54,140 nucleotides of DNA from Pseudomonadales bacterium (lineage in GTDB: Bacteria; Pseudomonadota; Gammaproteobacteria; Pseudomonadales; Azotimanducaceae). A program made the translations under genes and the position numbers. Positions 519 through 32,087 of this stretch are shown here, piece after piece (the stretch's first letter is position 1; every line of letters starts with the position of its first letter). The stretch is from the NCBI GenBank assembly GCA_029251375.1, contig JAQXDL010000013.1:1-54140 (forward strand). Reading direction: 5' to 3'. Below the pieces are notes generated by a model. That model did not search any database, had not been told where the DNA came from, and saw nothing but the letters and a program-made list of their open reading frames with translations.

Positions 519-953
519 ATGTATAAAGTTCATCTCGATAAAGAGTTAAGACTTGTTCGCCTTCATCATTATGGCGACTTCGTGGGAGCAGAAATAGTGT
601 TAGCTCTGAGGGAGCTAATTCTTAACTGGTCTAGCTACTCCCCCGAGCAACCACTTGACTATTACCATAGGATTTTCGTAGACGTCTCGAAATCCACCCG
701 TGGGACACTTCACGATTCTGACAATGCATTTCATCATTTGGAAAGCAAAAAATTTATTAAATGGGGATTTGCCGGGCTATGGAAGATGGTCATTTTAAAA
801 CCGCCAGGTAATACAAAAAAAGCTGACGAACGGTTCAAAAGAGTCAAAGAGGTAGGCGCTTGGCGAGAATTTGATATTACTATGGTCGAGTCACTAGAAG
901 AGGTGGTTTCCCTGCTGGACCTGCCAGCTGGTTATGAACCCGCTGAGTTCTGA
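519..953 (+). CDS. Small STAS-like family paralogue (144 aa)
   Basis: Second member of the local four-gene family; function unknown. The sequence starts with a strand pair (residues 2-18, LVRLHHYGDFVGAE), which matches EHVGDYVGAE in the paralogue at 5797. A helix follows, then a strand ending in VDVSKST, the D-[ST]-D motif (DSDNA), a hydrophobic strand (WKMVILKPP) and a C-terminal helix. There is no signal peptide or membrane segment, so it is probably cytoplasmic. The ATG is supported by AGAGG about 6 bases upstream. It stands alone in an otherwise gene-poor stretch. A STAS or SpoIIAA-like fold is a guess from the pattern of strands and helices, and no catalytic motif was seen. Confidence 0.75.
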   Translation: MYKVHLDKELRLVRLHHYGDFVGAEIVLALRELILNWSSYSPEQPLDYYHRIFVDVSKSTRGTLHDSDNAFHHLESKKFIKWGFAGLWKMVILKPPGNTKKADERFKRVKEVGAWREFDITMVESLEEVVSLLDLPAGYEPAEF

Positions 954-4311: not shown

Positions 4312-5492
4312 TTAAGCTTCTGCTGCTCTCATCACGCGTAAAAAGTTAGCGCTCCAAATTTTCGCGATATCCTCGGCTCCGTAACCTCGTTTCACAAGTT
4401 CCAGCGTAATGTTGAATGAGTCTGATGCATCGACGCAGCCATCAATATGGCCACTGCCGTGGTTAAAATCCGTACCGATGCCCACATGGTTTATTCCCAG
4501 TCTATGCACGACATAATCAATATGGTCGACCAAATGATGCACCTTGGTTGGACCCAATAGTTCTGTAATCTTCGTAAGGTAATTCTTCTTTACTTCTTTG
4601 TCTTTGATTCCCCAATAAAGTTCATAGGGGTAGTCGTAGGCCTCTGGTAAGTCGGCCTCGATACGCGCTGTCTTAATGTTATTGATCAAATCAGGATCTG
4701 AAAAGTCAAGCAGATTACCATGGAAGGCTGATATATGAACGACACCACCATTTGCCGCGAGCTTGTCTAACTCATCATCACGCAGATTACGTTTTACATT
4801 CGATATCGATTTAATATTGGAGTGACTGGCGATGACAGGTCTTTCAGCGATGTTTAAGGCTTGTAGGGTTGCGGCATAAGATAGCTGTGAAATATCCAGC
4901 ACGCCTCCCAGTCGATTGATTTTCGCGATTCCTTTAACGCCCAGTTCAGATAAACCGCCATGTTCTTCATCTACCTCATAGCTGCATGTTTTTACATTGT
5001 AATTTGGGCGAGATGAGTCAGCGAAATGATTGTGCCCCATATGGGTCAGCGCAAAAACCCGTGCGCCAAGCTGGTAGTAATGATCGAGGTAGGTTGGGTC
5101 TTTGCCCAATACTCGAGCATTCTGGAATCCAAAAATGAAGCTGAGTCTCTTTTCGCTAAAGGCTTGTTCAATTTCAGCCGCGCTTTTTGTCAAGCGATCG
5201 ACTTGTCTGCTTCAAGCAACTGAAGAACAGTCGCATGTTGTAACTGCATTTGTTCTCGCGCGAACTTAACGCCCCGCTCAGACCGAGAGCCCGGTCCAAC
5301 AGCCAGCGCCAAGACAACGCTATTAAGCCCGCCTTCACGCATCTTTTCAGGCGCAACCTTTGAAGCGCCACCTTTACTTAAAAATTGTGGTGAAGTTTTG
5401 GTCGTGACAATGTCGGCGTGAGCATCTAGGCATAGTGTGTCATCGTGAATTACGCGGGCTTTGCTTAATAAGTCAGGTGTGTCTTCAGACAT
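4312..5492 (-). pseudogene. M19 (renal/membrane-type) dipeptidase split by a frameshift
   Basis: Two overlapping frames together make one peptidase M19 of about 393 aa. The N-terminal piece (5492 to 5190) has the metal-binding H-x-D in CLDAHADIV and ends ...EADKSIA. The C-terminal piece (5193 to 4312) continues naturally as TKSAAEIEQAF and carries GARVFALTHMGHN, ASHSN and VGIGTDFNHG. At the junction the bases read GCTTGACA: a stop TGA overlaps a possible TTG restart, and one extra T would restore a continuous reading frame. So this is a one-base deletion, a sequencing error or, less likely, coupled re-initiation. Compared with the family as I recall it, the bridging Glu (here GFQN) and a metal His (here LDISQ) are both Gln, so this is a divergent subfamily or an inactive enzyme. 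Nothing indicates an operon. Confidence 0.8.
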
Positions 5493-5796
5493 AGGTTCTA
5501 ATCACGGTTGCTTGCGAATGAGTCTATTCGAGCACCTAGGCTAAATCTAGATGTTGGGTACCTCTTGGCGATATTATCAGTTTTTATAAATATTGGGATA
5601 TCGAAAAACTGCAAGTTATCGAGCGTTCTGTCAGTGTCTGGAAATTTGCGATTGACTGTTAGTTTGGGATAAATTTAGTAAGATTGGTGTCTATTCTCGA
5701 GTAGAAAAAATTATATGACACATAAAGACGGTCGAATTGTTCACGATGCGGACAGCCACATCATTGAGGCGACCGCCGCGATTTGGAGTAGAAAAT
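5493..5796. other. Intergenic region ahead of a STAS-like gene
   Basis: AT-rich stretch between the divergent dipeptidase and STAS-like genes. It presumably holds both promoters, but no convincing pair of promoter boxes could be assigned. No gene is seen. Confidence 0.4.
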
Positions 5797-6225
5797 TTGT
5801 TAAATGATTATTATTACGACGAGCGAAACAATTTGCTCGTTATGGAGCACGTTGGCGATTATGTTGGTGCCGAATTTCAGACCGTGGTTCCAGAATTATT
5901 AGAGAAAGTACAGGGGCAGGTAAATTACATTATCATAGACATGAGTAAAGTGACGTCCGCCACAATTATTGATACTGACTTAGCGCTGGTAAATTTGACT
6001 CACCATAAAATTACGAAGCTCGGCTTTGATTTGGATATTGTTCTTATCTGCGCCATCATTCCGCAAGACGCCCCGCAAAACCTAATTCAAAGGTCCGAGC
6101 GGTTTACGACCAGAAGCAACTACATAAAGTATATCAGGAGTGTGTCTTGGGAAGCGGCTTTTGTTGAAATGGATTTAGAGCATTTCTTTTCATATCCCTT
6201 TTCAATCAAAACACAGTCTGAATAA
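5797..6225 (+). CDS. Small STAS-like family paralogue (142 aa, TTG start)
   Basis: Third member of the local family. The frame is open back to 5737, but the TTG at 5797 has GGAG eight bases upstream and gives 142 aa, matching the paralogues. The same GGAG-then-TTG layout recurs at 6528. It has a strand pair (NLLVMEHVGDYVGAEF), a helix, a strand ending in IIIDMSKVTSA, the shared D-[ST]-D motif (DTDLALV), a strand VLICAIIP followed by QDAPQ, then ISW-type SVSWEAAF near the end. There is no signal peptide or membrane helix. Function is unknown; a STAS/SpoIIAA-like fold is suggested only by the pattern. It is closest to the copy at 6528. Confidence 0.75.
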   Translation: MLNDYYYDERNNLLVMEHVGDYVGAEFQTVVPELLEKVQGQVNYIIIDMSKVTSATIIDTDLALVNLTHHKITKLGFDLDIVLICAIIPQDAPQNLIQRSERFTTRSNYIKYIRSVSWEAAFVEMDLEHFFSYPFSIKTQSE

Positions 6226-6410
6226 ATTCTAAGTGGTACATTACAGCCATCAAAAATTACGGATGTCAGCGAGAGTCCTTCGCGAATCATTTTGGAGTTG
6301 CCTTAGCATCGATCATTTGTAATATTTGCGCAGAGTTTTTAGTTTCTTTTTCATTTTCGGGCGAGATTGATTAGCGTACTATCCTCCGGAATATTCAAAC
6401 AAGATCAGGC
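6226..6410. other. Spacer between two paralogues
   Basis: No gene was seen. It leads into the 16-bp tandem repeat that precedes the next paralogue; the whole gap between the two coding regions is about 300 bp. Confidence 0.4.
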
Positions 6411-6474
6411 CTAGACATAGATAGGACTAGACACAGATAGGATCAGACAGAGATAGGACTAGACAAAGAGAGCA
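6411..6474. repeat. 16-bp tandem repeat, 4 copies
   Basis: Units at 6411-6426, 6427-6442, 6443-6458 and 6459-6474 follow the pattern [CT][CT]AGACAnAGATAGGA; the last is degenerate at its end. The array sits 53 bp upstream of the STAS-like gene at 6528, where a promoter would be expected. Confidence 0.9.
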
Positions 6475-6527
6475 ACAGTTTAACGGGTTCTATCTGTGGC
6501 GCGCGAATCAGCAATTACGATTATGAG

Positions 6528-6950
6528 ATGGAGTTAAAAATTTTGTTGAATAACTACCATTATGATGAGGTCAATAAGTTGCTCGTCACAGAGCATGTCG
6601 GGCACTACGAGCCAGCAGAATTGCAGAAGTGCTTACGAGAAATATTTGCAAAGATGACGGGGAGGGTCGAAACGATCATTGCTGTCTGGAGTGAGCTTTC
6701 TTCCGCCTCAACTGGTGATTCCGACCTGGCGCTTGTGGATTTTAATCGTCGTAAAACGAATGAGTACGGCGCTGATCTTGATAATATCATTTTATACGTT
6801 GTTATTCCGCGAGATGCGCCCGAGAGCTTAGACAACAGGTATAAACTGATGTGCGGCAAAACTGGGGGCACAAAAGTCTTTAGGGTTATCTCTTGGGAAG
6901 CAGCACTTGCTGAAGCGGGTATAAATGGTTCTTTGCCATTTTCCTTCTAA
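6528..6950 (+). CDS. Small STAS-like family paralogue (140 aa)
   Basis: Fourth member of the family and a close relative of the copy 300 bp upstream: NNYHYDEVNKLLVTEHVGH against NDYYYDERNNLLVMEHVGD, VIPRDAPESL against IIPQDAPQNL, and ISWEAALAE against VSWEAAFVE. The D-[ST]-D motif is DSDLALV. The ATG at 6528 is in frame, but GGAG at 6530-6533 precedes a TTG at 6543, the same layout as in the sister gene, so translation may start there. The residue aligned with the acidic D-x-S position is W here (IIAVWSEL), so the copies have diverged. Probably cytoplasmic; function unknown. Confidence 0.75.
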   Translation: MELKILLNNYHYDEVNKLLVTEHVGHYEPAELQKCLREIFAKMTGRVETIIAVWSELSSASTGDSDLALVDFNRRKTNEYGADLDNIILYVVIPRDAPESLDNRYKLMCGKTGGTKVFRVISWEAALAEAGINGSLPFSF

Positions 6951-7627
6951 AACGAACCAAGCATGCACGATCGTAAACTCGCCGTATCGCCAATCATCGT
7001 TAGCCCTCAATGAGGGTCGTCAGACTTTAAGCAAAGACGTTGAATTTTCCTTTCATGGCGGAAACCGATGACAGAGCCTTGGTGGCTACTAAACAATAAG
7101 GCGGCAATGGGTCCCTCTGTAAGACGGTTTAGTTACTTTGTTACAAACTTGAGAAAGAAACGGTAGCGCTTCAGGACAGTAGATAATCTCAACAGATGTG
7201 ATGCCTGCGCCAAACTGTTTCTATCCGCATAATTCATCGATCTGAAAATTTGGAATCGACAAGAGCTAATGTTGATCTTTGCAGGTCCAATTTGGCTGAC
7301 CTGAGCTTGGATCAGCGATAATCCCAAATTTTATGGTCAGGCAGAGCGCTATTTTTTGTCAATGATCACAGCAGACGTTTGCTTAGCTCTAAAGTAGGTC
7401 ATGAACTCACTGGCTTCTGGGATTGAAGCTTGCAGTCTGATTGATTGTTCAATTCGTCGAGTCGCCAGCGGAAAATCATAGAATCTTCTTCGCAAGTCAA
7501 GGCGCGAAACGTCGCGCAAGAGGCTCTCAACCGCTTCAAAACTTTACAGTGCGCGAGCTGTTGCGATTGACCCATATCAAATCGGTTAGACCGTGTAAGG
7601 TGTCGGCGAGTTATTGCAGCATTAGCG
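6951..7627. other. Intergenic, no gene recognised
   Basis: About 680 bp between the last STAS-like gene and the end of the symporter gene. Only short frames of poor quality were found. A small palindrome (CCCTCA-A-TGAGGG, 7004-7016) follows the STAS-like gene. No terminator, repeat array or RNA gene was recognised. Confidence 0.5.
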
Positions 7628-9202
7628 TTAGTCAATGGTCGCCGCGTCAGCACCGAACATAGCCTTGAGGTGGTTTGCCGGCAGTGGTCGTGTCAGCTTC
7701 GACACGATAACAGTAGCCGCAATGGATACAATCTCGCCCATGACCGCGCAGGAATATGGGTTGGGTCCTTCAAGGTATAGCCAGTGAGCCATTTTTCCTA
7801 CTGCACCAGAGCCAAACCACTGTGGGTTGAAAAGTTGAGCATGCAGTATTACGAATACAGTGATGCCTCCAATCAGGCCAGCATATGCGCCGTGTTTAGT
7901 GACGCCCTGCCATAGTGCTCCTACCACCAGAGGACCGGCAAATGCGGCCATCATGCCACCAACGCCAATCCAGACAATAAGCGCGACGTTAACATCCATG
8001 AGAAACCAAGCCATCGTCATACACAGTAGTAACACTACGATGGTAGAAACCCGAGAAATCTTTAAAATCCGCTGGTCTAATTCTTCCTCAGACAGGTTTG
8101 GGTTAGTGCGCGGCACGATGGTCCTACGATAAATATCATTCGCAATAATTTGCGAAGACGACACGACAAGGCCGTCAGCTGTACTCATGACAGCTGATAA
8201 GACGCCAACGCCGATTAAAGCGGCCAACCAAGTTGGAAAAATTTCGATAAAAATCAAAGGCAGTGCTTGGTTTGGATTTGCGCCTTGTTGATACAACGCG
8301 TCCCCAAAGTATGCTCTTGCCAGCAAACCTGCCAAACCCAGCATACCTAGTGTCAATCCAAATAATGCGGCGAGTTTGACAAACTGCATGCGATCACCAT
8401 CGGACTTCAATGCCCATAATTTGTTTCCAAGATGCGGTAATAAGCCAAGTGGCATGTGTGCAAATGCGATAACAAAGATAGACCACCAAGAATGATACAG
8501 CGGTGTATTTTCGTTAAGAGGTGTTACTAAAACCTCGTCCTGTGCCTCAAGGTTGTTAAGCATGCCAGTAAAACCGCCTTCGACGCCAAATCCTGTCAAT
8601 GTCAAAAGGATGACAATAACCGCGAGTACCAACATCATTGCACCCTGCACACCATCAGTCAGGATGTCCGCGTGCGCGCCGCCCAGAACGACATAAAATA
8701 GCAGTACAACAGTGGTAATAATGAGTGCCCAATGGGAATCGAGACCGAGCATCAATTCAAACATCACGACGCCCGATACAAGTTGTCCGGCGAGATAAAA
8801 GAACAGTACGAGCGATAGTATAGAAACCAATAAACGGATGCCCTCTGATTGATAGCGGTCACCAAGGTATTCAGGTATTGATCGATTGCCGAATCTGTTG
8901 CCGGACGTTGCAATAAGGCGCATCGAAATAAGGATGCCGACATAGACGCCAATCGGATAGAGGAAATTTGCCCAATTTGCCGCGAGGCCAAATTCGTAAG
9001 ACAAAGCTGGGTTCCCTAAAAAGGTTGCGCCACTCGCAGTCGATGCTGCAAATGCTAATGCCAAGAACAAGGGACCATAAGAACCCCGCGCGGTAGCAAA
9101 ATCATCAGCATGCATTATTTTGCGTTGAGCATAGATGCCAATGCCGACCATCAATGCAATGTATAAGAAGAGAAAAATCCAGGACCAGGTAATTAAACTC
9201 AT
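7628..9202 (-). CDS. Sodium:solute symporter (SSS family)
   Basis: Inner-membrane Na+-coupled transporter of 524 aa with about 13 hydrophobic helices. The first is at residues 5-25, followed by the family's characteristic region after helix 1 (DDFATARGSYGPLFLALAFAASTASGATFLG) and GLAANWANFLYPIGVYVG. Later come GGAHADILTDGVQG and the conserved STADGLVVSSSQIIANDIYRR stretch, both typical of the pantothenate/proline/solute branch. The substrate cannot be assigned. The start ATG is well placed, and the gene is flanked by long non-coding stretches, so it is likely monocistronic. A catabolic role with the neighbouring thiolase or dehydrogenase is only a guess. Confidence 0.9.
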   Translation of the reverse strand: MSLITWSWIFLFLYIALMVGIGIYAQRKIMHADDFATARGSYGPLFLALAFAASTASGATFLGNPALSYEFGLAANWANFLYPIGVYVGILISMRLIATSGNRFGNRSIPEYLGDRYQSEGIRLLVSILSLVLFFYLAGQLVSGVVMFELMLGLDSHWALIITTVVLLFYVVLGGAHADILTDGVQGAMMLVLAVIVILLTLTGFGVEGGFTGMLNNLEAQDEVLVTPLNENTPLYHSWWSIFVIAFAHMPLGLLPHLGNKLWALKSDGDRMQFVKLAALFGLTLGMLGLAGLLARAYFGDALYQQGANPNQALPLIFIEIFPTWLAALIGVGVLSAVMSTADGLVVSSSQIIANDIYRRTIVPRTNPNLSEEELDQRILKISRVSTIVVLLLCMTMAWFLMDVNVALIVWIGVGGMMAAFAGPLVVGALWQGVTKHGAYAGLIGGITVFVILHAQLFNPQWFGSGAVGKMAHWLYLEGPNPYSCAVMGEIVSIAATVIVSKLTRPLPANHLKAMFGADAATID

Positions 9203-9784
9203 AGCAACTCGTATTTTTTATTATGGTTTGTAGGTTCGCCCGACGGTTAAGCGGTTAGTCCCGTTGAGTATAAATAATTTTCTGAGGCATGACAGCGCAT
9301 TGCGAAGAACTTAGCCGTTTAAATCAAAAGATTGCCCGTATTAAGATAAAATATTACGGCCCATATTATAAAACTCTTTCTAAAACGCGTTGACAGTAAC
9401 GCAAGCGAAGATGTTTGACGTCGCAAAATCCAATTCAATGGCGTCGCACCCTCTTAAGCTAGTTGGTTAAAGATGGTTTGAAAAATTGCTCGAAAGTCAG
9501 CATGGAGACACTTTGTCGTGGTATCTGCTTGTTGATTTAAGCGGCTTTATTTCTGTCGAGTTTAAATGTTGAGTCGTGCAGAGTTTAAGATTGCCTATGA
9601 TTTAGGGACGATAAGGCAAAGGTGGATCAAAACAAAAAAGATAAAGCGAAATTTGTTATGTTTTATTTTGTAACTAAAAGACCGTTTTTGGTGCTCGTTT
9701 GACGTGTACATGCGCGTCAATGTTTAATGTGAGCGTGTTAATTTTTTTTATCGCGAGTCGGCTTGTGCTTCTAGATCGACAAAA
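9203..9784. other. Long intergenic region with one operator-like inverted repeat
   Basis: No gene was recognised upstream of the symporter. A perfect 6-bp inverted repeat (TTGACG at 9699-9704, CGTCAA at 9715-9720) with a 10-bp gap is the only structured element. It could be a regulator site, but it lies 500 bp from the symporter start. Confidence 0.4.
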
Positions 9785-9810
9785 AAAAAGGGGACGTGAG
9801 TCCCCTTTTT
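9785..9810. terminator. Intrinsic terminator downstream of the thiolase gene
   Basis: AAAAAGGGGAC (9785-9795), a GTGA loop, then GTCCCCTTTTT (9800-9810): a perfect stem with A- and T-tracts on both sides, so it can work in both directions. It lies about 60 bp beyond the thiolase stop on the minus strand. Confidence 0.9.
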
Positions 9811-9868
9811 CGTGCCACGCGCATAATGTTTCTAGCGCTTGGTTATTCTGCCACGAGTGACGTCGGTA

Positions 9869-11056
9869 TTAGCAAGCTTCGAATAGACCTGCTGCACCCA
9901 TGCCACCACCAATACACATACTAACGATGCCGAACTTCTTCTCACGACGCTTAAGTTCACGCAGAACGTGGCCTGTAAGACGTGAGCCGGTCATACCAAA
10001 TGGGTGACCAATTGAGATAGAACCGCCATTAACATTGTAGATTTCTGGATCGATTTCTAGCTTGTCCCGGCTGTAGAGACACTGTGAAGCAAATGCTTCG
10101 TTCAGTTCGACAAGGTCGATGTCATTCATGGTCATACCCTTAGCTTTAAGAAGCTGTGGGATTGCCCAGATAGGACCTATGCCCATCTCATCAGGCTCAC
10201 AACCAGCAACTCTCCAACCGCGGAAATAAGCCAGTGGCTCAAGACCTAGTTGCTCAGCTCGTTCAGCGCTCATGACCAAAGTCATAGATGCACCGTCAGA
10301 AAGTTGAGAAGCATTACCTGCAGTAACAGTACCGTCTTCTTCAAAAACTGTAGGCAGTGAAGCAAGACCTTCAAGTGTCGTTGATGGGCGATTACATTCG
10401 TCCTTGTCACAAACACCGTCTACAACTTCAGTTTCCTTTGTTTCTTTGTTGATAACTTTCTGGTATTTGGTTTTCATTGGAACGATTTCGTCGTCGAATA
10501 AACCGGCTTCTTGAGCAGCAGCTGTTCGCATCTGAGACATCAATGAAAACTCATCCTGTGCTTGGCGAGTTACACCGTAACGACGTGCAACAACTTCAGC
10601 AGTGTTACCCATTGCCATAAAAATAGCGGGTGACTTCTCTTCGATGAAAGGGTGTTTTGCAGATTTTCCAGGTGTCTGGCGAGTACCTGAAGAGATTGAT
10701 TCAACACCACCGGCGATCATGACTTCTGAACAACCACTGGCAACTTGCGTAGCAGCCATGGCGATTGAGTTAAGACCTGAAGAACATGCTCGAGAAATTG
10801 TTGATCCCGCTGTAGTGATAGGCAGATTAGACAAGATAACGGCCAGTCGAGCTAAGTTTCCGCCCTGCTCGCCAGTTTGGCTTGCACTACCAACGATTAC
10901 ATCTTCTACTTCCGCAGGATCTAGCTTGGGGTTTCTTTCAAGCAATGCATCGATACAGTGCGCAACCATGTCATCTGGTCGAGTTAAATTAAACGTACCA
11001 CGGAATGACTTAGCCAATCCTGTTCTTACACTATCTACTATAACGACGTCGCGCAT
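9869..11056 (-). CDS. Thiolase (acetyl-CoA C-acyltransferase)
   Basis: Thiolase of 395 aa acting in beta-oxidation or in acetoacetyl-CoA formation, cytoplasmic. All three catalytic residues are visible: the nucleophile Cys91 in SRACSSGLNS, His351 in SIGHPFGMTGSR, and Cys381 in SMCIGGGMGAAG. Length and the N-terminal pattern (VVIVDSVRTGLAKSFRGTF) match FadA-like and broad-range bacterial thiolases. No FadB-like partner is adjacent, so degradative and biosynthetic roles cannot be separated. The ATG has AGAGGAG at good spacing. A 10-bp palindrome (AATCTAGATT, 11131-11140) upstream may be a regulator site. The gene has its own terminator and appears monocistronic. Confidence 0.9.
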   Translation of the reverse strand: MRDVVIVDSVRTGLAKSFRGTFNLTRPDDMVAHCIDALLERNPKLDPAEVEDVIVGSASQTGEQGGNLARLAVILSNLPITTAGSTISRACSSGLNSIAMAATQVASGCSEVMIAGGVESISSGTRQTPGKSAKHPFIEEKSPAIFMAMGNTAEVVARRYGVTRQAQDEFSLMSQMRTAAAQEAGLFDDEIVPMKTKYQKVINKETKETEVVDGVCDKDECNRPSTTLEGLASLPTVFEEDGTVTAGNASQLSDGASMTLVMSAERAEQLGLEPLAYFRGWRVAGCEPDEMGIGPIWAIPQLLKAKGMTMNDIDLVELNEAFASQCLYSRDKLEIDPEIYNVNGGSISIGHPFGMTGSRLTGHVLRELKRREKKFGIVSMCIGGGMGAAGLFEAC

Positions 11057-11191
11057 CGGTAATTACTCCTCTGGGAATGGAACCTTGCAATCTGATTTAG
11101 ATTAATTGGGGGCGTATTGTGCACTCTTACAATCTAGATTTACAAGGTTTGTGTGTCTATGAAACTGAATGATGTGCGTCAATAGACCTGT

Positions 11192-13039
11192 TTAATTTGT
11201 GGCTTTGTGGTGTGACAGAGACTTCTGGCTGCGCTCCAGATAATCGCAGCTTTCAGTTAGCCCGCCGGGTCGATTGCGAGCGAGCCAGAGTTTTCGATGG
11301 CGCCGGCTCGATGTTTTTAAGTTTTCCAACATGCGCTTAGCTGAGAGCTGTGCGCCTCGGGCCAGCTGAAGCCGCTGTATACTATGTATCGAAAGGGATG
11401 CAGCGTTATCCATCTCGGCTATCGCGATACTATCTGGCTCCTTCAGAAACGACAACTCTGATCGTATATCCGTTAACTGTGACTCGCAGGCGGACAATTG
11501 TTGGTCTGTTATCTTGCGGGTCACGCTGGCCTCAGACTTCAGCGGCGAAAAGAGGACGTGGTTAAAAATAGTCGCGTTTCGAATAGGCGAGGGAGCGAGC
11601 TCTAAAGTTTGGCCGATTTTGATCAGTAGTGCCGCGCCGCGAGGGTTTTGACCTTCCATAAACATCTGATTCACAACATGATTTAGGTCAATTTGGCTGC
11701 TGCCGCGATGATTCCAACTTTCGCATGCACCAAGAGCAAACCCTGGGTAACTAAAGGGTAGGTATTGATGGTGACCGTGATCTCCCCAGTCTGTTACCAA
11801 ATAGCCCTGCGCTCCGTATTTGATGCCGTTTCTGGCGGCACTTTTTAAGTTGCGGCGGGCATTATCAATCCGGCCGGTCAAAGAGTTCCAGCTTGATGTG
11901 CCTGGGCAAACGTAGAATGGAATTTTTTGGCTTGCGACGGCCTCGGACTCCTTCTTAAACGGGTGGCTGGCTTCGTAGCCCCAGTTGAGGGCGATTAGCT
12001 CCTTAGATAGTTGTTTCAAGGAGCTCGGTTCCTTGAGCACGATATCGCTCCAAAACATCATGGTTCGGCCGCGCTTTTCGACCAATTTTTGTATCTGCTT
12101 TATGAAATCGACATACACAGCCGTTGTACCGAGCGTTTTACAGCGATCCTTACTCCAGCCTTCGCCAAGCTCCCACGGCTCGTCACCGCCGATATTGAAG
12201 TAATCGCTGTCGAACAACGGCAGCATTTCTCCATGTAACTCGTTGATCAAACCCAAACTCTTTTTGTTTGGCTTCAAGGTACTGCCAATATCAATTTTAT
12301 TCTTGGTTAAAGGGTGTACAAACCCATCGGGACACTCAGCGAAAGACTTGTACTGTGGATGCTTAAGCCAGCGCTCGAAATGCCCAAAACAATTTAGGTT
12401 GGGCACAAGATCAATATATCGCTCATTACAATAGGATTTTATCTCAAGAATGTCGGCGGCGTTGTAAGGCGATGCCTGCGACCACACAGTTTCATGGTTG
12501 AGGAAAGCGAAGGTATGTTCCGTATAAAGTTGCAGTTGATTGTATTTAAGTGCTGAAAACTGGTCGATAAGTCGCTTTAGTGTCAACAGGCTTGGCACTT
12601 TACATCGGCTGATGTCGAGCATGATGCCTCGTTCAGCAATATCGGGTTGGTCTTCAATGGTGATGTAAGGTCGTGCAGGTCCACCCTTTATTATCTGTGC
12701 CAGCGTTGCTAGTCCTCGGAACAGTCCAGTTTCACTTGATGCGCTGAGAGAATAACCGGCGGTGGTGGTGAGAATTTGGTATGCCTCTTGTTGCGACTTG
12801 GTCTGGCTCGATTTTTTAAGTGTCACTTTGATTAAAGTAAGCTCGTCGCTGGGTTGGCCGTAAGTAATTTGAATCTGATGTCCGATATCATTAGCGATAT
12901 TCGCTGTGAACCTTGCAAGCGCAGCATTGAAAATATCCGAATGACTTTGCTGTAACTGGATGAAAAATCGATCAGATAGGTCAATTGTAGGCCGCGCAAC
13001 CTTTATAAGCTTTGGTGGCGGATATATAGAAATTTGCAT
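11192..13039 (-). CDS. GH20 beta-N-acetylhexosaminidase-like protein
   Basis: Glycoside hydrolase family 20, 615 aa. An N-terminal alpha/beta domain (about residues 1-125) precedes the TIM barrel. RGIMLDISRCKVPS opens the barrel, and the catalytic Asp-Glu pair is D286-E287 in NIGGDEPWELG. GH20 enzymes remove terminal GlcNAc or GalNAc by substrate-assisted catalysis. No signal peptide is visible, so it would act in the cytoplasm, unlike secreted chitobiases. A possible job is cutting imported chitin or peptidoglycan fragments. The C-terminal 180 residues beyond the barrel are helical and charged and were not recognised. No sugar transporter or GlcNAc catabolic gene is next to it. Confidence 0.8.
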   Translation of the reverse strand: MQISIYPPPKLIKVARPTIDLSDRFFIQLQQSHSDIFNAALARFTANIANDIGHQIQITYGQPSDELTLIKVTLKKSSQTKSQQEAYQILTTTAGYSLSASSETGLFRGLATLAQIIKGGPARPYITIEDQPDIAERGIMLDISRCKVPSLLTLKRLIDQFSALKYNQLQLYTEHTFAFLNHETVWSQASPYNAADILEIKSYCNERYIDLVPNLNCFGHFERWLKHPQYKSFAECPDGFVHPLTKNKIDIGSTLKPNKKSLGLINELHGEMLPLFDSDYFNIGGDEPWELGEGWSKDRCKTLGTTAVYVDFIKQIQKLVEKRGRTMMFWSDIVLKEPSSLKQLSKELIALNWGYEASHPFKKESEAVASQKIPFYVCPGTSSWNSLTGRIDNARRNLKSAARNGIKYGAQGYLVTDWGDHGHHQYLPFSYPGFALGACESWNHRGSSQIDLNHVVNQMFMEGQNPRGAALLIKIGQTLELAPSPIRNATIFNHVLFSPLKSEASVTRKITDQQLSACESQLTDIRSELSFLKEPDSIAIAEMDNAASLSIHSIQRLQLARGAQLSAKRMLENLKTSSRRHRKLWLARNRPGGLTESCDYLERSQKSLSHHKATN

Positions 13040-24290: not shown

Positions 24291-25526
24291 GTGACTGCAA
24301 AGAATTCTTCCATCAATAAAATTGTCCTGTCTTACTCCGGTGGCCTAGATACCACTGCTATATTGAAATGGCTGCAAGAGACTTACGATTGCGAAGTGGT
24401 AACCTTCACTGCTGATTTGGGTGATGGCGATGACTATGCGCCTGTCAGACAGAAAGCACTGAATTCAGGTGCCTCAGAAGTTTTCATTGATGATCTGCGC
24501 GAAGAGTTTGTTAAGGATTTTGTTTTCCCAATGTTCCGCGGCAACACCATCTACGAAGGTGAATATCTGCTGGGTACATCCATCGCTCGGCCTTTGATTG
24601 CGAAACGTCTCATCGAGATCGCCAATGAAACTGGCTCTGATGCTATTTCTCACGGGGCAACAGGTAAAGGCAATGATCAGGTCCGATTTGAGCTCGGCGC
24701 TTATGCCTTGAAGCCTGATATTAAGGTTGTTGCACCCTGGCGCGAATGGGATTTGACGTCACGGGAGTCATTGCTCAAGTTTTGTGAAACGCATCAGATA
24801 CCGGTTGACCGTAAACACGAAGGCGATAAATCACCTTATTCCATGGATGCAAATCTACTGCATATCTCTTACGAGGGCGGCATCTTGGAGGACCCAAATG
24901 CTGAGCCGGAGGAGTCAATGTGGTTATGGTCAAATTCTCCTGAAGCTGCGCCAGACACGCCGACTTATATTGAACTTACTTACAAAGGCGGCGATATTAC
25001 CGCGATCGATGGTGTCGAGATGTCGCCAGCGACTGTTCTAACCCACTTGAATAAGGTTGGCGGCGAGCACGGCATAGGCCGGGTGGATATTGTAGAGAAT
25101 CGATACGTCGGTATGAAAGCGCGCGGTTGCTATGAATCGCCAGGGGGCACGATTTTGCTCAAAGGACATCGCGCGATTGAATCTGTGACTTTAGACAGAG
25201 AGCTAGGCCATCTGAAGGATGACCTGATGCCGAGATACGCCAGCCTTATTTATAATGGCTACTGGTGGTCACCGGAAAGGATTGCCTTGCAGGCGCTGAT
25301 TGATGACTCGCAGCGATACGTTAACGGCGTCGTGAGACTAAAACTATACAAAGGTAACGTTATTGTTGTTGGGCGAGAATCGTTAACTGATTCTCTCTAC
25401 GATGGAAATATTGTGACCTTTGAAGATGATGCCGGCGCCTATGATCAGAAAGATGCAGAGGGCTTTATTCGCCTTAACGCTTTGCGGCTCAAGGTCGCCA
25501 GCAAGAAAAATAGGAAGATGATTTAA
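24291..25526 (+). CDS. argG: Argininosuccinate synthase
   Basis: Cytoplasmic enzyme of 411 aa joining citrulline and aspartate at the cost of ATP to AMP. The ATP-binding P-loop SYSGGLDTT is near the N-terminus, followed by [40 protein letters not shown] and YESPGGT, all typical. The start is GTG. The stop codon overlaps the stop of the convergent nth gene, so no terminator fits between them. Confidence 0.96.
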
Positions 25527-26167
25527 TCGTCTAAATCCTGTTTTTTGCCTTTGTATTCGCATAGATCGTAGATCACGCAGGCACCACAGCGAGGGTTCCT
25601 CGCTGTGCAAACATACCGACCGTGTAAAATGAACCAATGATGTGCATCTAAAATAAACTCATCCTCAATCACCTTGATGAGTTTATCCTCAACCTGCCGA
25701 ACATTCTTACCTGGTGCGAATTTGATCCTATTCGACAGGCGAAAAATGTGCGTATCGACCGCCATAGTAGGCTGACGAAAGGCTGTGTTTAGAACGACAT
25801 TGGCGGTCTTTCGTCCCACCCCCGGTAATGCTTCAAGTGCCTGTCGATTATTAGGCACCTCGCTACCGTGCTCATCTATCAGCATGCGACAGGTCTTAAT
25901 GACATTGGCGGCCTTACTGTTATACAGGCCAATCGTCTTGATATATTCTTTGAGACCTTTTTCGCCCAATGCAAAAATAGCCTCGGGCGTATTAGCGACC
26001 TTGTAGAGCTTGTCCGTTGCCTTGTTTACCGACACATCTGTAGCTTGTGCGGACAAGATCACAGCAATCATTAACTCAAAGGTTGAATCGAAATTTAACT
26101 CTGTTGTTGGTGTGGGATTCTCGTCCCGCAGGCGTGTCAAAATTTCGCGGCGCTTGTCTTTATTCAT
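25523..26167 (-). CDS. nth: Endonuclease III
   Basis: Base-excision repair glycosylase/AP lyase of 214 aa for oxidised pyrimidines. The helix-hairpin-helix [13 protein letters not shown] includes the catalytic Lys, the catalytic Asp is in [11 protein letters not shown], and the C-terminal 4Fe-4S loop has C-x6-C-x2-C-x5-C spacing ([17 protein letters not shown]). It ends the metG-rnf operon, 52 bp after rnfE, the standard position of nth in gammaproteobacteria. The gap contains a 14-bp tandem repeat. Confidence 0.96.
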
Positions 26168-26181
26168 TGGTTATCTTTCGC

Positions 26182-26231
26182 AGTTCATCATTCATAGTTC
26201 ATCATTCATAGTTGATCATTCATCGTTGATC
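26182..26231. repeat. 14-bp tandem repeat spanning the rnfE 3' end
   Basis: AGTTCATCATTCAT at 26182 and 26196, AGTTGATCATTCAT at 26210, and a partial fourth unit from 26224. The rnfE stop codon and last codons lie inside the array, so the C-terminus may have been reshaped by repeat growth. Confidence 0.85.
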
Positions 26232-26894
26232 TGAAACCGATTGTGTTGGTGAAATAGTTGTCGGTGACTGTTGACGCGCGTAGCGCTGGTCAATCAAGTT
26301 CTTGAGGGCAATGAGACAGCCCAGAACGAAAAAGGCACCCGGTGGTAATAGCATTAGGAGGAACGGCTCATTCGGCAGGCGTATTAAATAGTTTGATTCA
26401 TCGCCGCCGAACACCAAGTGCATTTGACTAAACAACGTGCCGCTTCCGATAACTTCGCGAACAACACCCATGGCGAGTAGCGCGATAAGAAACCCTAAGC
26501 CCATGGTGAAGCCATCCAGTACCGCGGCACCTATGCCGTTGCGTCGTGCGAAACCTTCTGCTCTGCCCAGGATAGTGCAATTGGTGACGATCAACGCAAT
26601 AAATAACCCGATGCGCTGATGTATATCGAACATGAAGGTTTGCACAAGCAGGTCTCCAATTGTGACGAAGCTTGCGATGATCATTATCTGTGCGGGTAGT
26701 CGGGTTGAGTCATCGAGCTTGCGCCTAATCATACTAATAATTAGATTAGAACCTGTTAGCACGAGCAGCGTCACGATGCCTAACACCAGACTATTGGCGA
26801 CGGTATTCGATACGGCCAACAATGGACATAAGCCCAGCAATTGAACCAATGCCGGATTATTTGACCACAACCCCTGTAACGTATTGTCATTCAT
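26220..26894 (-). CDS. rnfE: Rnf/Rsx electron transport complex subunit E
   Basis: Inner-membrane subunit of 224 aa with about six helices, related to RnfA. It starts with NPALVQLLGLCPLLAVSNTVANSLVLG, which includes the conserved Cys-containing segment, and has the VTNCTILGRAEGFARRNG segment seen in RnfE/NqrD proteins; the two Cys positions are thought to bind an intramembrane iron centre in the family. It overlaps rnfG by 8 bp. The C-terminal tail (SPTTISPTQSVSDQR) is partly encoded by a tandem repeat. Confidence 0.93.
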   Translation of the reverse strand: MNDNTLQGLWSNNPALVQLLGLCPLLAVSNTVANSLVLGIVTLLVLTGSNLIISMIRRKLDDSTRLPAQIMIIASFVTIGDLLVQTFMFDIHQRIGLFIALIVTNCTILGRAEGFARRNGIGAAVLDGFTMGLGFLIALLAMGVVREVIGSGTLFSQMHLVFGGDESNYLIRLPNEPFLLMLLPPGAFFVLGCLIALKNLIDQRYARQQSPTTISPTQSVSDQR

Positions 26895-27591
26895 GCTGGC
26901 TTTGAATCTCTTGCATTTTTTCCTTTAATACGGCTGAAGGAATCTGCTCGTGATCGCTCTTAAGGTTCTCTTCGAGGTGTGCGGCAATCGCTTTAATAAT
27001 TGCCTTTGGCGTGATGGTCGCGCCAGCGAAAGCATCAAAATCACCGCCATGCTTTTTCACATCCCACTCGGCATTTTCTAGACTGCGATGGTCAAAGTCC
27101 AAAACCCAGTCAGAGATTGAAAGGTCGAATTTATCGCCGAGCCCTGGCGTCTCCTGATGGGATATGACTCGAACACCTCTGACAGTACCTGTGTCACGGG
27201 TAGCTAACCAAAATGTGATGTCGCCATTGTAACCTTCAGGTGTGAGGATTTTTTCGATTCTTCCGCTTTCAATGACCCTGTCAATGTAAGGTTCTTTTTC
27301 ATCGCTTTCTTGGCGCTCGGCCTGAAGATCGCTTTGCCCGAAACCTAAATCTATGGCGTAGAAATAAAGTGCCTCGTTTTGTTTTACAAGTGATACTTGT
27401 TTTGGATCTAGTTCGGTACCAAGCAGTTCGTGTAGCTGCCGTTCTGCGTATTGCTGATGGTTGATTTCAATTGTATGCCGCGTTGCAATATGCACGATGA
27501 CAAGACCTAAGCCGCAAAATAGAGACAGTAAAGCTAGTCTGCCAGCAACGTGATACAACGGCGTTTTTTCTGACAGGCTCATTTCAACCAC
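26887..27591 (-). CDS. rnfG: Rnf/Rsx electron transport complex subunit G
   Basis: Periplasm-facing flavoprotein of 234 aa with one N-terminal membrane helix (about residues 13-35). The family carries FMN covalently on a Thr in a D-x-x-[ST]-GAT motif. Here the motif reads DAFAGAT with Thr192 as the acceptor; the residue before GAT is Ala where Ser or Thr is usual. ITPKAIIKAI follows as in other RnfG. Overlaps of 13 bp with rnfD and 8 bp with rnfE imply translational coupling. Confidence 0.92.
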   Translation of the reverse strand: MVEMSLSEKTPLYHVAGRLALLSLFCGLGLVIVHIATRHTIEINHQQYAERQLHELLGTELDPKQVSLVKQNEALYFYAIDLGFGQSDLQAERQESDEKEPYIDRVIESGRIEKILTPEGYNGDITFWLATRDTGTVRGVRVISHQETPGLGDKFDLSISDWVLDFDHRSLENAEWDVKKHGGDFDAFAGATITPKAIIKAIAAHLEENLKSDHEQIPSAVLKEKMQEIQSQHE

Positions 27592-28496
27592 CGAAGCCGC
27601 ACATGGTCAATGATGGGCGCAAGGCTGTTCATCAGCAGAATAGCGAAGGCGAAACCGTCCGGGTAGGCGCCATAGCTTCTAATAATGAAAGTAATCAAGC
27701 CTACGCCTGCACCAAATATATACAGACCCACGCTCGAGTTCGGGCTAGTGACCGGGTCGGTGACGACAAAGAATGCGACCAACATGGTGCCGCCTGAAAA
27801 TAGGTGGAACATTGGTGAGCCAAGACTCTCGGAGCTGCCGCTATCGTAAAAAACACTCGATGCGACGATAAGCGCTAGCAGCATTGCTAGCGGTGCTTGC
27901 CAGTTGCAGCATTTGTAGAAGATCAAAATGACACCGCCAGCAAGATAGCCAATGTTGATCCACTGCCAAGGGGTTGAAGACAGGCTTGAGAAGCCGTTTG
28001 CCGTCGTCCAAATTTCGTCAATTGTTGTCGCGCCTCTGAATTTCATCATATCCAGTGGTGTAGCACCGGTAACACCATCGACAGTTGAATCAAACAGCAC
28101 CGGCCAATTGGACATGGCTAAGGGAAAAGAAACGATCATGACGGCGTACCCAACCATTGCAGGGTTAAATAGATTGTGACCTAGGCCACCATAGACGTGT
28201 TTGCCAAATAGTATTGCGAAGCCTGTTCCGATGACAGGAAGCATCAGGTTGATATCGGGCGGTAGTGCGAGACCGAGCAGAACGCCGGCGATGACAGCTG
28301 TGCCATCTGTTAGCGCGGTTAATTTTTTTCGTTGAAGAGCAAGCGCGATCGATTCGAAAAATATTGCGCTTAAAGCACAGGTCGCGACGTTTATAAGGAT
28401 ACCTAAACCAAAGAAATAGGTTGAAATGAGCGCGCCCGGTAATACAGCGACAAGTACCAACATCATGATCCGATTGGTGCTGTTGAATACCATCAT
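27579..28496 (-). CDS. rnfD: Rnf/Rsx electron transport complex subunit D
   Basis: Polytopic membrane flavoprotein of 305 aa with eight to ten hydrophobic segments. The covalent FMN site is seen as DGVTGATPLDMM, and the GGLGHNLFNPAMVGYA and TDPVTSPNS signatures of the NqrB/RnfD family are present. Length is shorter than E. coli RsxD (about 350). Its start overlaps the end of the upstream rnfB-like gene by 4 bp (ATGA). In a normal cluster rnfC would lie between them; here there is no space for it. Confidence 0.92.
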   Translation of the reverse strand: MMVFNSTNRIMMLVLVAVLPGALISTYFFGLGILINVATCALSAIFFESIALALQRKKLTALTDGTAVIAGVLLGLALPPDINLMLPVIGTGFAILFGKHVYGGLGHNLFNPAMVGYAVMIVSFPLAMSNWPVLFDSTVDGVTGATPLDMMKFRGATTIDEIWTTANGFSSLSSTPWQWINIGYLAGGVILIFYKCCNWQAPLAMLLALIVASSVFYDSGSSESLGSPMFHLFSGGTMLVAFFVVTDPVTSPNSSVGLYIFGAGVGLITFIIRSYGAYPDGFAFAILLMNSLAPIIDHVRLRWLK

Positions 28497-29464
28497 CGTT
28501 TAGACTTCAATGTGGCGAGTAACTGACTCTTGTCTTTTCTGGAAGGTCTTGTTTTTACTCGCGTCTGATGGACTTCTAAGCGTTTTGTTCTCTCCTCAAA
28601 TCTTACCTCTGCGATTTTTGCGCGTTCTCGTTGACTGACTTCATCATCAATGCGTTGTTTAGTGTTAATAAAATAGTCCGTTAAGGGTATATCACTGGGG
28701 CATATTCGATCGCAAATTCTGCATTCAATACAGCTGTTGAGGTTAAGTAAGCTAAGCGCGTCGCTATCGTTTCGTTGCCAGAATAGCTCCTGTGGCGCCA
28801 GATTTTTTGGGCACTTCTCTTCACAGAATCCGCAACGAATGCAGGCCTGATGTGACGATGTTAAGGGCGAGGGGTTTACCATTTGCGGGTAATTCTTGTT
28901 AGCTGGCAAGATCCTCTCTTGCTGTGTTGCAGGTGCATCGACCATATCAATGCAATCAACGGGGCAGGGTTCTAGACAAAGGTCACAACCGGTGCAGACA
29001 TCCTCTAGCACCACATGCATCAGTTGCGGCGCACCGATAATCGCATCGACGGGACAAGCTTGAATACATAAAGTGCAGCCAATGCATTCCTCTTCACGAA
29101 TTTTAGCGATCCTCAGAGGCTGTTCTTCTCCGAAATCTGAATCGAGCGCTACAATTTCTTGTCCCAACAGTTGGGCCAGTTGCTTAATTGTCGCTTCACC
29201 CCCAGGTGGGCAGCGATTAATCGGTTCACCCGCCGCGATAGCCATTGCATAGGGCCGACAGCCTGGATGGCCGCATTGCGCACACTGGGTTTGTGGAAGG
29301 CATGCATTGATCTTCTTAATGACTTCGTCTTGTTCATTCGGATAACGTTTGGCGACGAACAAGAGTGCGGCGGCGATTATCGTGCCGAGCAGTGTTAGCA
29401 GAATGACGCTTGGTGCCATTTGCCCAGCGAGTGCGGTGAGATCGTTAAGCCAAGCATCGTTCAC
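28493..29464 (-). CDS. rnfB: RnfB fused to the C-terminal Fe-S segment of RnfC
   Basis: 323 aa against about 190 for E. coli RsxB. Residues 1-170 are a complete RnfB: a membrane helix (16-38), the CAQCGHPGCRPYA cluster (C61, C64, C69, C85) and two ferredoxin clusters (C127/130/133/137 and C157/160/163/167). After a linker, residues 207-275 match the tandem 4Fe-4S part of RnfC (CIRCGFCEEKCP at 208-219, CIECRICDRICPS at 245-257, then DIPLTDYF). The charged tail FEERTKRLEVHQTR also resembles RnfC. The NADH/FMN (51K-like) and SLBB parts of RnfC are missing, and there is no separate rnfC. Five 4Fe-4S clusters are predicted. In the complex, RnfB accepts or gives electrons on the cytoplasmic side. 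The gene sits between rnfA and rnfD. Confidence 0.9.
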   Translation of the reverse strand: MNDAWLNDLTALAGQMAPSVILLTLLGTIIAAALLFVAKRYPNEQDEVIKKINACLPQTQCAQCGHPGCRPYAMAIAAGEPINRCPPGGEATIKQLAQLLGQEIVALDSDFGEEQPLRIAKIREEECIGCTLCIQACPVDAIIGAPQLMHVVLEDVCTGCDLCLEPCPVDCIDMVDAPATQQERILPANKNYPQMVNPSPLTSSHQACIRCGFCEEKCPKNLAPQELFWQRNDSDALSLLNLNSCIECRICDRICPSDIPLTDYFINTKQRIDDEVSQRERAKIAEVRFEERTKRLEVHQTRVKTRPSRKDKSQLLATLKSKR

Positions 29465-29466
29465 GA

Positions 29467-30042
29467 TTAATTCATCCCCGTGAAGCCAAGGAATGCGAGG
29501 GATAATATGCCTGCGGTAATCATATTAATTGCTGCGCCCTGAAAGGGCAGTGGGATATCCGTTTGCGACATGCGTTCGCGCAGTGACGCAAACACAATCA
29601 GAACCAGCGAAAAGCCCAGCGCCGCCCCTAAGCCGAATAAGACAGAGTCAATGAAACCTTGGTTTTGTCTAATGTTTAGCAACGCTACCCCCAGCACTGC
29701 ACAGTTTGTTGTGATCAGCGGTATAAAGAGCCCCAGTACTTGATGAAGCACCGGTTGGGTCGCGCGAATAACAAGCTCTGAAAACTGCACCAGCCCGGCG
29801 ATTACCGCGATGAAAACAATAATGCGAAGGTACTCAAGGTCAAAGGGGCTTAGCAGATAAGTTTCGATCAGATAGCTTGCGGCCGAGGCTAAGGTAAGTA
29901 CGAAGGTTGTGGCGGCCGCCATACCAAAGGCGGCTTCCATTTTTTGCGTTGCGCCCATGAACGGGCAGAGGCCAAGAAATTGCACCAGCACAAAGTTGTT
30001 AACAAACAGGGCCGTTAAAAGTATTGCCAGTGCATCTGACAT
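29467..30042 (-). CDS. rnfA: Rnf/Rsx electron transport complex subunit A
   Basis: Inner-membrane protein of 191 aa with six helices. [28 protein letters not shown] and [13 protein letters not shown] are signature RnfA sequences with the two conserved Cys positions shared with RnfE. Length equals E. coli RsxA. It begins 14 bp after metG and is followed by rnfB after 2 bp, so it is the first rnf gene of the operon. Confidence 0.95.
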
Positions 30043-30056
30043 TGGCGCGTGTGTCC

Positions 30057-32087
30057 TTAACAGACCTTCATGCCGGCAGTAGCGCCGGTATGAGGCTCAA
30101 GTAAATAAATATCAGACCCGCCTGGTCCTGCGGCGAGTACCATGCCCTCTGACATGCCGAAACGCATTTTTCGAGGTGCTAGGTTGGCAACCATGACGGT
30201 TTGCTTGCCGATTAACTGTTCAGGTGAATATTTTGATTTTATACCGGCGAACACATTGCGAGTTTCACTGCCAAGATCGAGCGTCAGACGTAGCAGTTTG
30301 TCAGCCCCTTCGACAGATTCAGCATTGACGATTGTTGCAACCCGAAGGTCGACCTTGGCAAAGTCATCAAACTCGATTTGAGGCGAAATACCTTCGACTT
30401 TGTCGTCGCCTGTTTTGTCTGCTTCTTTGTCAGGCTTAGTCGGTGCAGACTCTGTCGAGGCGGCAACCATAGCTGCAACCTTGTCGGATTCAGCCCGAGT
30501 AATAATCGGTTTGAACTTGTTGATTTCATGGTTCACTAACGGATGCTTGATGTCTTCCCAATGCATGGCTGGCACATTAAGGAACTGTTCGGACTTTTCA
30601 GCGAGACTAGGGATGACCGGTTTCAAGTAGCCAATGAGGATGCGGTACATGTTAATACCATCGGAGCAAACGTTGTGTACGTCAACTTCGTTACCAGGCT
30701 GCTTGATCTTCGCCCAGGGTTCGCACTCTGCGATGTATTGATTTGCCTTATCAGCCATCGTCATCACGTCGCGAATCAGCTTGCTGTATTCACCCTCCTC
30801 GTAGAGTTTTGCGATGGCATCACTTTGAGAAATAAACTCCTGTATTAATGGTGACGTCGGCTCTGCGGATAGCGTTGCATTGTAATTTTTCTTAATAAAC
30901 CCAGCGCATCGACTGGCTATGTTGACGACCTTGCCGACTAAATCTGAGTTTACCTTTTGTACAAAATCATCAAGGTTGATGTCTATGTCATCAATGCTAG
31001 CGGTGAGTTTACTTGCGTAATAGTAGCGCAGGTATTCGGGATTAAGATGATCCAGATAAGTTCTTGCGTTGATAAATGTGCCTCTCGACTTACTCATCTT
31101 CTGTCCATTGACGGTGATGAAGCCGTGAGCATGGACTTTAGTTGGGGTCCTATAGTCGGCACTTTTTAACATGGCCGGCCAAAACAGCGCATGAAAGTTG
31201 ATGATGTCTTTGCCTATAAAGTGGTGCACCTCATGCTGGCTATCTGACTTCCAGTAGTCGTCAAAATTGATATTGCCCTGTTGATCGCAATAGTTTTTAA
31301 AGCTCGCCATATAACCGATAGGGGCATCGAGCCAGACATAAAAGTATTTTCCCGTTTCGCCAGGGATTTCGATACCAAAATAAGGCGTATCCCGACTAAT
31401 ATCCCAGTCTTGTAAGCCAGCGTCTAACCATTCGGCAAGCTTGTTTGCGACTTGTGTCTGTAGTGCGCCGCTACGTGTCCACTGTGTTAAGAAATCTGTG
31501 AAGTTCGATAAGGCGAAGAAAAAGTGTGTCGATTCTTTCTCGACGGGTTCGGCGCCGGAAAGTTTCGACTGTGGATTGATGAGATCCATGGCGTCGTAGG
31601 TTGCACCGCAGGCTTCACAATTGTCGCCATACTGATCGTCAGCTTTACACTTTGGACAGGTGCCGACAATAAACCTGTCAGCAAGGAACATTTCTCGTTC
31701 TGGATCGTAGAGTTGAGCGACTGATTTTGTCTTGATTTGTCCGGCTTGCTTGAGCTTATTGTAAATAAGGCCGCTGAAGGCTTCATTTTCAGGTGAATGA
31801 GTGGAGTAGTAGTTGTCATGACTGATATGGAAATCGCCAAAATCCGCTTCATGCTCTGCCTTAATTTCTGCGATTAGTGCTTCCGGCGTCGTGCCTCTCT
31901 CTTCGGCTTTAAGCATAATAGCTGTGCCATGGGTGTCATCGGCGCAGACATAAATGCAATTTTGATCGGACATCCTCTGAAAGCGCACCCAGATGTCTGT
32001 TTGTATATGCTCGAGCAGATGGCCAAGATGGATCGATCCATTGGCGTTTGGCAGTGCACTGGTGACTAAAATGTCTCGTTTTGTCAT
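30057..32087 (-). CDS. metG: Methionyl-tRNA synthetase
   Basis: Class I synthetase of 676 aa charging tRNA-Met. HLGH is at residues 20-23, the zinc knuckle is [17 protein letters not shown], and KMSKS appears in [12 protein letters not shown]. The anticodon-binding helical domain and a C-terminal EMAP/Trbp111-type tRNA-binding dimerisation domain follow a Lys/Glu/Asp-rich linker. Length and domain order match the E. coli enzyme. It heads the operon that runs into rnfA-B-D-G-E and nth and is divergent from mrp across 167 bp. Confidence 0.96.

Follow-up and report, generated by a model that had tools for sequence, protein, structure and literature searches.

Rnf is defined by NADH:ferredoxin chemistry. 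In the solved complexes, electrons pass from RnfB through the RnfA/E cluster, the RnfG FMN, the RnfD FMN and riboflavin, the two RnfC clusters and the RnfC FMN to NAD (PMC9588780, PMC11889175, PMC12174285). The RnfC ferredoxin domain is described as bridging the RnfD riboflavin (11.7 Å) to the FMN, and the RnfB and RnfC clusters as lying 25-30 Å or more apart (PMC11889175, PMC9588780); arms of RnfD are reported to be buried in, or attached to, RnfC (PMC9588780, PMC11889175, PMC12174285). The closest described systems are the gammaproteobacterial Rnf/Rsx complexes (RnfABCDGE, rsxABCDGE-nth). Na+-NQR has a homologous membrane core; it lost RnfB and the clusters of RnfC, kept the shell of the RnfC head, and acquired NqrF together with a quinone site on NqrB; its NqrA is presented as a former RnfC without cofactors (PMC4014512, PMC12174285). 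In Clostridial and Acetobacterium complexes, RnfB is lengthened by extra ferredoxin modules (PMC9588780, PMC11889175). Solo RsxB/RnfB ferredoxins (NF005415, NF006446) are encoded between metG and nth without a complex.

The window analysed here is a stretch of 54,140 nucleotides from a Pseudomonadales bacterium of the Azotimanducaceae (GCA_029251375.1, contig JAQXDL010000013.1, positions 1 to 54,140). On its minus strand lies the block metG-rnfA-rnfBC-rnfD-rnfG-rnfE-nth, in which the constant neighbours metG (30057-32087) upstream and nth, encoding endonuclease III (25523-26167), downstream enclose rnfA (29467-30042), the rnfBC fusion (28493-29464), rnfD (27579-28496), rnfG (26887-27591) and rnfE (26220-26894). 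A 2-nt gap separates rnfA from rnfBC, and the rnfBC/rnfD, rnfD/rnfG and rnfG/rnfE pairs overlap by 4, 13 and 8 nt, respectively. No rnfC was found between rnfBC and rnfD, and no gene beyond the named rnf set was present in the operon. The gene order, the metG and nth neighbours and five of the six subunits are those of Rnf/Rsx, as are the redox residues of RnfA, RnfD, RnfE and RnfG, the three-cluster part of RnfB and the RnfC dicluster with its tail. In contrast to Rnf/Rsx, there was no RnfC head, and with it no NAD(H) site and no RnfC FMN, the dicluster was fused to RnfB, and the RnfD arm motifs were missing. Three small plus-strand ORFs elsewhere in the window (519-953, 5737-6225 and 6528-6950) resemble each other N-terminally (..HVGDYVGAE..) and are possibly paralogues.

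The rnfBC gene encodes 323 aa in frame, with five [4Fe-4S] sites (20 Cys). Its RnfB-derived part (residues 1-184, 28913-29464, minus strand) comprises a TM helix, an FeS domain (C61, C64, C69, C85) and a dicluster ferredoxin (C127-C167); it matched PF04060 and, over residues 20-184, the RnfB model TIGR01944 (223 bits, cut-off 68.7). The RnfC-derived part (residues 203-323, 28496-28858, minus strand) consists of a dicluster (C208-C255) and a long C-terminal helix. Residues 202-312 corresponded to positions 363-475 of 556 in the RsxC model NF003454, and residues 203-273 to positions 360-432 of 435 in the RnfC model TIGR01945; since these matches begin at model positions 360-363, the C-terminal ferredoxin domain and tail are the sole portion of RnfC left in the protein. 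Likewise, a profile of 16 fused-family proteins matched Azotobacter vinelandii RnfB (8ahx_B 1-164) and the C-terminal stretch of its RnfC (8ahx_C 360-485). The linker between the RnfB part and the RnfC dicluster measured 23-96 residues in the aligned fusions (median 30). AlphaFold2 gave a pLDDT of 64 with 16 rows and 76.8 with 55 rows, the RnfB dicluster remaining below 50; in the 55-row model, helices were predicted at residues 3-40 of the RnfB part and 261-303 of the RnfC part. Foldseek returned no match to the model under an E value of 0.001, the top matches being 8rbq_C (RnfC, E 7.7e-3), 9eri_C (RnfC) and 8ahx_B (RnfB, E 0.42).

The membrane subunits carry their redox residues: cluster cysteines C26 and C114 in RnfA and C23 and C106 in RnfE, an AGATIT motif (T194) in RnfG, and, in the 305-aa RnfD, a TGATPL motif with the FMN-binding threonine (T146). 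The RnfA and RnfE cysteines bind [2Fe-2S] and the RnfG residue binds FMN (PMC11889175). RnfD of the window has neither the PRxYGH C-terminal nor the SPH N-terminal arm motif. It matched the rnfD model TIGR01946 best (318 bits, cut-off 207), as against 122 bits for nqrB (cut-off 350), and has no NqrB N-terminal extension, which disfavours the use of quinone as in NQR. Neither NqrF nor a cofactor-free NqrA is encoded in the rnf operon.

The head was also absent from the rest of the genome, which is 99.6% complete. With an intact RnfC (598 aa) as the query, the fusion was the only match, which rejects a complete rnfC elsewhere; the RnfC_N (PF13375) and Complex1_51K (PF01512, FMN/NADH domain) searches led to the same result. 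PF13375 gave one match, at C37:64041-64247 (26.1 bits, cut-off 25.6), and because this lies directly ahead of nqrB-like (PF03116) and nqrDE-like (PF02508) matches it was assigned by position to NqrA; the nqr-like cluster concerned spans 64041-68609 of that contig. PF01512 had no match in the genome, whereas the same search was positive in 8 of 12 genomes and in 9 of 14 named controls. The lack of this domain means that the organism probably has no complex I. In this genome RnfC has thus been reduced to the two-cluster ferredoxin domain with the tail, tethered to the C-terminus of RnfB, with the FMN/NAD(H) head gone and the other redox sites present: RnfA, RnfD, RnfG and RnfE with their redox residues, and RnfB with its TM helix, FeS domain and dicluster ferredoxin. 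The preliminary description had reported the contiguous rnf genes without rnfC and an RnfB carrying the Fe-S tail of RnfC, and had predicted five clusters on the RnfB side and no built-in NADH site; each of these claims was confirmed by the results above. Two other genomes with the fusion (G001, C68 ~79900-86600; G033, C26 ~5300-12100) apparently contain a further Rnf cluster in which RnfC is complete and RnfB is long, a cluster not found in the window genome.

The fusion protein was matched in 115 of 140 sampled family genomes at an E value of 1e-20, and in 66 of the 140 a single alignment, running from residue 33 or earlier to residue 272 or later (counted from the table), crossed both halves. 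The two halves shared one frame with an insert in G080, G098 and G140, and matches were truncated by contig ends in G019 and G121. The relatives come from other assemblies, two of them single-contig genomes (G098 and G140), which excludes a collapse of about 1.2 kb between rnfB and rnfD. Compared with a relative at 83% identity (G003), dN/dS was 0.091 for RnfBC, 0.093 for its RnfB part and 0.055 for its RnfC part, and 0.018, 0.042, 0.073 and 0.135 for rnfA, rnfE, rnfD and rnfG, respectively. Within the fusion, purifying selection is thus strongest on the RnfC part. All 20 cluster cysteines were kept in 55 aligned fusions, barring one X and the gaps of two rows at contig edges; alignment A3 omits two duplicates (L068, L071), the window itself (L048), two fusions with an insert (L162, L179), L149 and the f67 solo proteins.

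Redox residues were counted, at sites with sequence only, in 48 fused family loci, three of which are public loci placed in the family or matching it. In RnfA, C26 was present in 43 of 43 and C114 in 44 of 45 (Arg in G004); in RnfE, C23 was present in 45 of 45 and C106 in 44 of 44. T146 of RnfD was invariant (47/47), and T194 of RnfG was found in 44 of 45 loci, with Ser in G067. In G002, a member of the same genus, rnfD, rnfG and rnfE were not found within 6.5 kb downstream of rnfBC. Transposase-like ORFs lie directly 3' of rnfBC in that genome (L050, 8715-13338, plus strand). In another locus (L038 of G010, ~6041-8649, plus strand), a luciferase-like monooxygenase gene and an aldehyde-dehydrogenase-like gene, both named by eye, stand between rnfG and rnfE.

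Several forms of RnfC occur in the family: canonical separate proteins (genus g56), diverged separate proteins, proteins without the N-terminal domain (genus g7), stand-alone diclusters (genus g10; G151 and G158) and dicluster fusions. FMN motifs were mostly retained in the separate proteins. Genus g58 alone includes a short separate RnfC (G100), stand-alone diclusters (G151, G158), dicluster fusions (G083, G115, G131, G142) and a full fusion; the last is a 764-aa frame in the single-contig genome G061 (L149, 2603-4894, plus strand) that joins RnfB to a nearly complete RnfC with one altered FMN motif (NGMASEP). The stand-alone dicluster loci of genus g10 (L034 of G013; L152, L160, L167) kept the RnfD and RnfG motifs. 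At the places of RnfA and RnfE in this genus, neither protein was recognisable any longer, and the only PF02508 matches in G013 were one adjacent pair on another contig.

The headless change recurs outside the family. Of 577 loci confirmed in a scan of genome contigs, 80 were covered. In order and class samples of 274 and 293 genomes, both halves were found in one frame in at least 11 genomes of at least 8 further families, and of the 12 loci fetched, 11 proved to be one-frame fusions and one (G206) has a normal operon. The other rnf genes were retained beside the fusion in G253 and G373 (f116) and in G571 (f15). In G655 (f215), G295 (f158) and G270 (f133), rnfA was present and no rnfD was seen in the available 2.1-4.1 kb downstream. 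In G386 (f133), rnfBC and rnfD are separated by an AAA-ATPase-like gene, and neither rnfG nor rnfE is present; the first RnfA cluster Cys was His, and its RnfD holds T in the relevant column within a motif not recognisable by eye. An AAA-ATPase-like gene after rnfBC, together with the Cys-to-His change in RnfA, was observed in both f133 loci (L212 of G386 and L211 of G270). G542 (f212) lacked rnfG and both RnfE cysteines but kept the RnfD threonine. Pseudohongiella HyVt-330 (L078) carries a stand-alone dicluster and a degenerate rnfA-like frame but neither rnfG nor rnfE.

The preliminary description had proposed that an rnfC deletion fused the 3' part of that gene to rnfB. The fusion of the C-terminal part of RnfC was borne out; the event was not one deletion in one genome, but a recurrent, family-wide change. 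Changes of state were counted on quick trees without bootstrap, and the numbers may be too high if operons were transferred or contigs mis-binned. At least 13 changes of 'head present' are needed, starred branches forcing 8 for the C label, on a 119-row MetG tree from which four unclassed loci and those lacking 400 aa of MetG are omitted; two other trees agree in kind, with 8 changes of the fused label (4 forced) on a first tree of 85 rows and 11 changes (3 forced) on a 146-row tree of RnfB plus the RnfC dicluster, which carried long-branch and composition warnings. A single origin by one deletion was not favoured, the scatter of the 'head' label being much wider than expected from one loss. 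Because stand-alone diclusters occur and G061 fuses RnfB to a nearly complete RnfC, loss of the head and fusion were distinct steps that did not always follow the same order.

The RnfD arm motif was present in 32 of 34 canonical RnfC loci outside the family and in 4 of 5 inside; it was absent from all 26 diverged separate loci and all 7 stand-alone loci, and a single one of the 52 fused loci had it. Loss of the arms as a hallmark of fusion was thereby weakened, since the diverged separate RnfC loci of the family are also without the motif. Judged by these motifs, the grip of RnfD on the RnfC head disappeared before, or together with, the head.

RnfBC was also found without a complex. In f114, 13 of 36 genomes (G251 included) aligned to the G251 protein over a span that opens near its first residue and reaches residue 272 or beyond, and a four-cluster RnfBC was found in 4 of 19 genomes of f67. 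All 16 fetched solo loci were flanked by metG and nth and had no other rnf genes. The RnfB membrane helix was absent from these proteins, and those of f67 also had no FeS domain. PF03116 (RnfD/NqrB) had no match in 14 of the 16 genomes; the other two (G204, G698) had a single match in a frame of 412-422 aa, which is NqrB-sized, and that of G204 adjoins a PF02508 pair, as in nqr. Since solo RnfBC keeps the dicluster without RnfD, docking on RnfD cannot be the only role of the RnfC dicluster. Other members of f114 and f67 encode RnfB-only ferredoxins in frames of ~200-217 aa or 131-161 aa. Like solo RsxB, the RnfBC solos contain an RnfB-type ferredoxin and are encoded between metG and nth in the absence of the complex; unlike it, they add the RnfC dicluster, which neither NF005415 nor NF006446 covers. 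Three RnfB-only solos (L233, L234, L235) have an Arg/Ala-rich low-complexity C-terminal tail that resembles the RnfC tail, as if they were RnfBC minus the dicluster. The window, with rnfA, rnfD, rnfG and rnfE, does not encode a solo RsxB, that is, an RnfB without other rnf genes; within this comparison that state was confined to the solo loci of f114 and f67.

We propose, with about even confidence, that the operon encodes a headless Rnf in which the transmembrane circuit still runs and the exposed RnfC clusters exchange electrons one at a time with a soluble carrier rather than with NAD(H). The RnfC dicluster would still sit beneath RnfD and exchange electrons with its riboflavin, so that the path RnfB - RnfA/E - RnfG - RnfD - RnfC dicluster would operate with ion movement, and the cluster that formerly fed the FMN would be open to a one-electron carrier of the ferredoxin or flavodoxin type. 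Such an enzyme would be a carrier:carrier oxidoreductase working without NADH, with the ion gradient setting the potential of the electrons delivered at RnfB, or the reverse. A linker of 23-96 residues can span the distance between the RnfB and RnfC clusters, and would let the dicluster remain beside RnfD while tied to RnfB. In favour of the proposal are also the missing head, the purifying selection that is strongest on the RnfC part, the conserved cluster cysteines and redox residues, and the near-complete loss of the RnfD arm motif from fused loci. Against a headless circuit stand the solo RnfBC proteins without RnfD, the lack of the arm motif in diverged separate RnfC loci too, the substitutions in G004 and G067, the missing rnfD, rnfG and rnfE of G002, the low-confidence model of the RnfB dicluster and the lack of a Foldseek match under an E value of 0.001.

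The strongest rival is that RnfBC is already mainly a polyferredoxin and that the membrane part is becoming dispensable, because the solo forms show that RnfBC can be useful without it. The 16 solo loci without other rnf genes, 14 of them in genomes without PF03116, agree with such a role, as do the incomplete or altered membrane parts of genus g10, f133, f212 and Pseudohongiella HyVt-330. However, the window and the great majority of family loci keep the membrane subunits and their redox residues, and dN/dS was low for rnfA, rnfE, rnfD and rnfG, and we consider this reading unlikely. The strong selection on the dicluster implies that it has a partner, and this could be a flavoprotein without a 51K domain that docks on the dicluster in trans in place of the head, leaving NAD(P)H as the partner. 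Fused genomes G003, G002, G011 and G036 do hold one or two Complex1_51K proteins; none was found in the window genome or in the fused G028, G024 and G073, and the window operon offers no additional gene, making a replacement in trans improbable as well.

A role as a reductase dedicated to SoxR or to some other Fe-S regulator, as the preliminary description had raised, is very unlikely. Reduction of SoxR by E. coli Rsx involves the full RsxC, which argues against such a role for a headless protein. In its favour, Rsx keeps SoxR reduced in that organism (PMC11729352). An assembly error or a decaying pseudogene has a negligible probability, given the one-alignment fusions in other genomes, the single-contig cases, a dN/dS of 0.09 and the conserved cysteines. 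A headless Rnf exchanging electrons with soluble carriers is the reading preferred here.

Compared with the known systems, this locus kept the half of RnfC opposite to that kept by Na+-NQR and has no NqrF. Like Clostridial and Acetobacterium RnfB, its RnfB is lengthened by more clusters; there, however, RnfC is complete and separate, whereas here the extra clusters are RnfC's own. No description of the fusion, or of an Rnf without the RnfC head, was found in full-text searches of open-access PMC papers. Our broader proposal is tentative: the headless Rnf may be a new functional type, a one-electron carrier:carrier oxidoreductase that is coupled to the ion gradient and independent of pyridine nucleotides. 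RnfBC may be a module with its own function that has broken away several times as a soluble polyferredoxin of four or five clusters, and the RnfB-only ferredoxins annotated as 'solo RsxB' beside nth would then represent later stages on that route.

Many annotated 'RnfB' proteins are shown by these comparisons to be RnfB-RnfC hybrids, and the solo forms make the roles of the RnfB and RnfC ferredoxins apart from the pump testable. The change also parallels the way in which NQR arose, with the other half of RnfC surviving there. If the proposal is true, the headless Rnf would serve as a natural minimal enzyme for studying ion coupling without hydride chemistry; a conserved Rnf without an NAD(H) site would show that the transmembrane circuit can be driven by other carriers.
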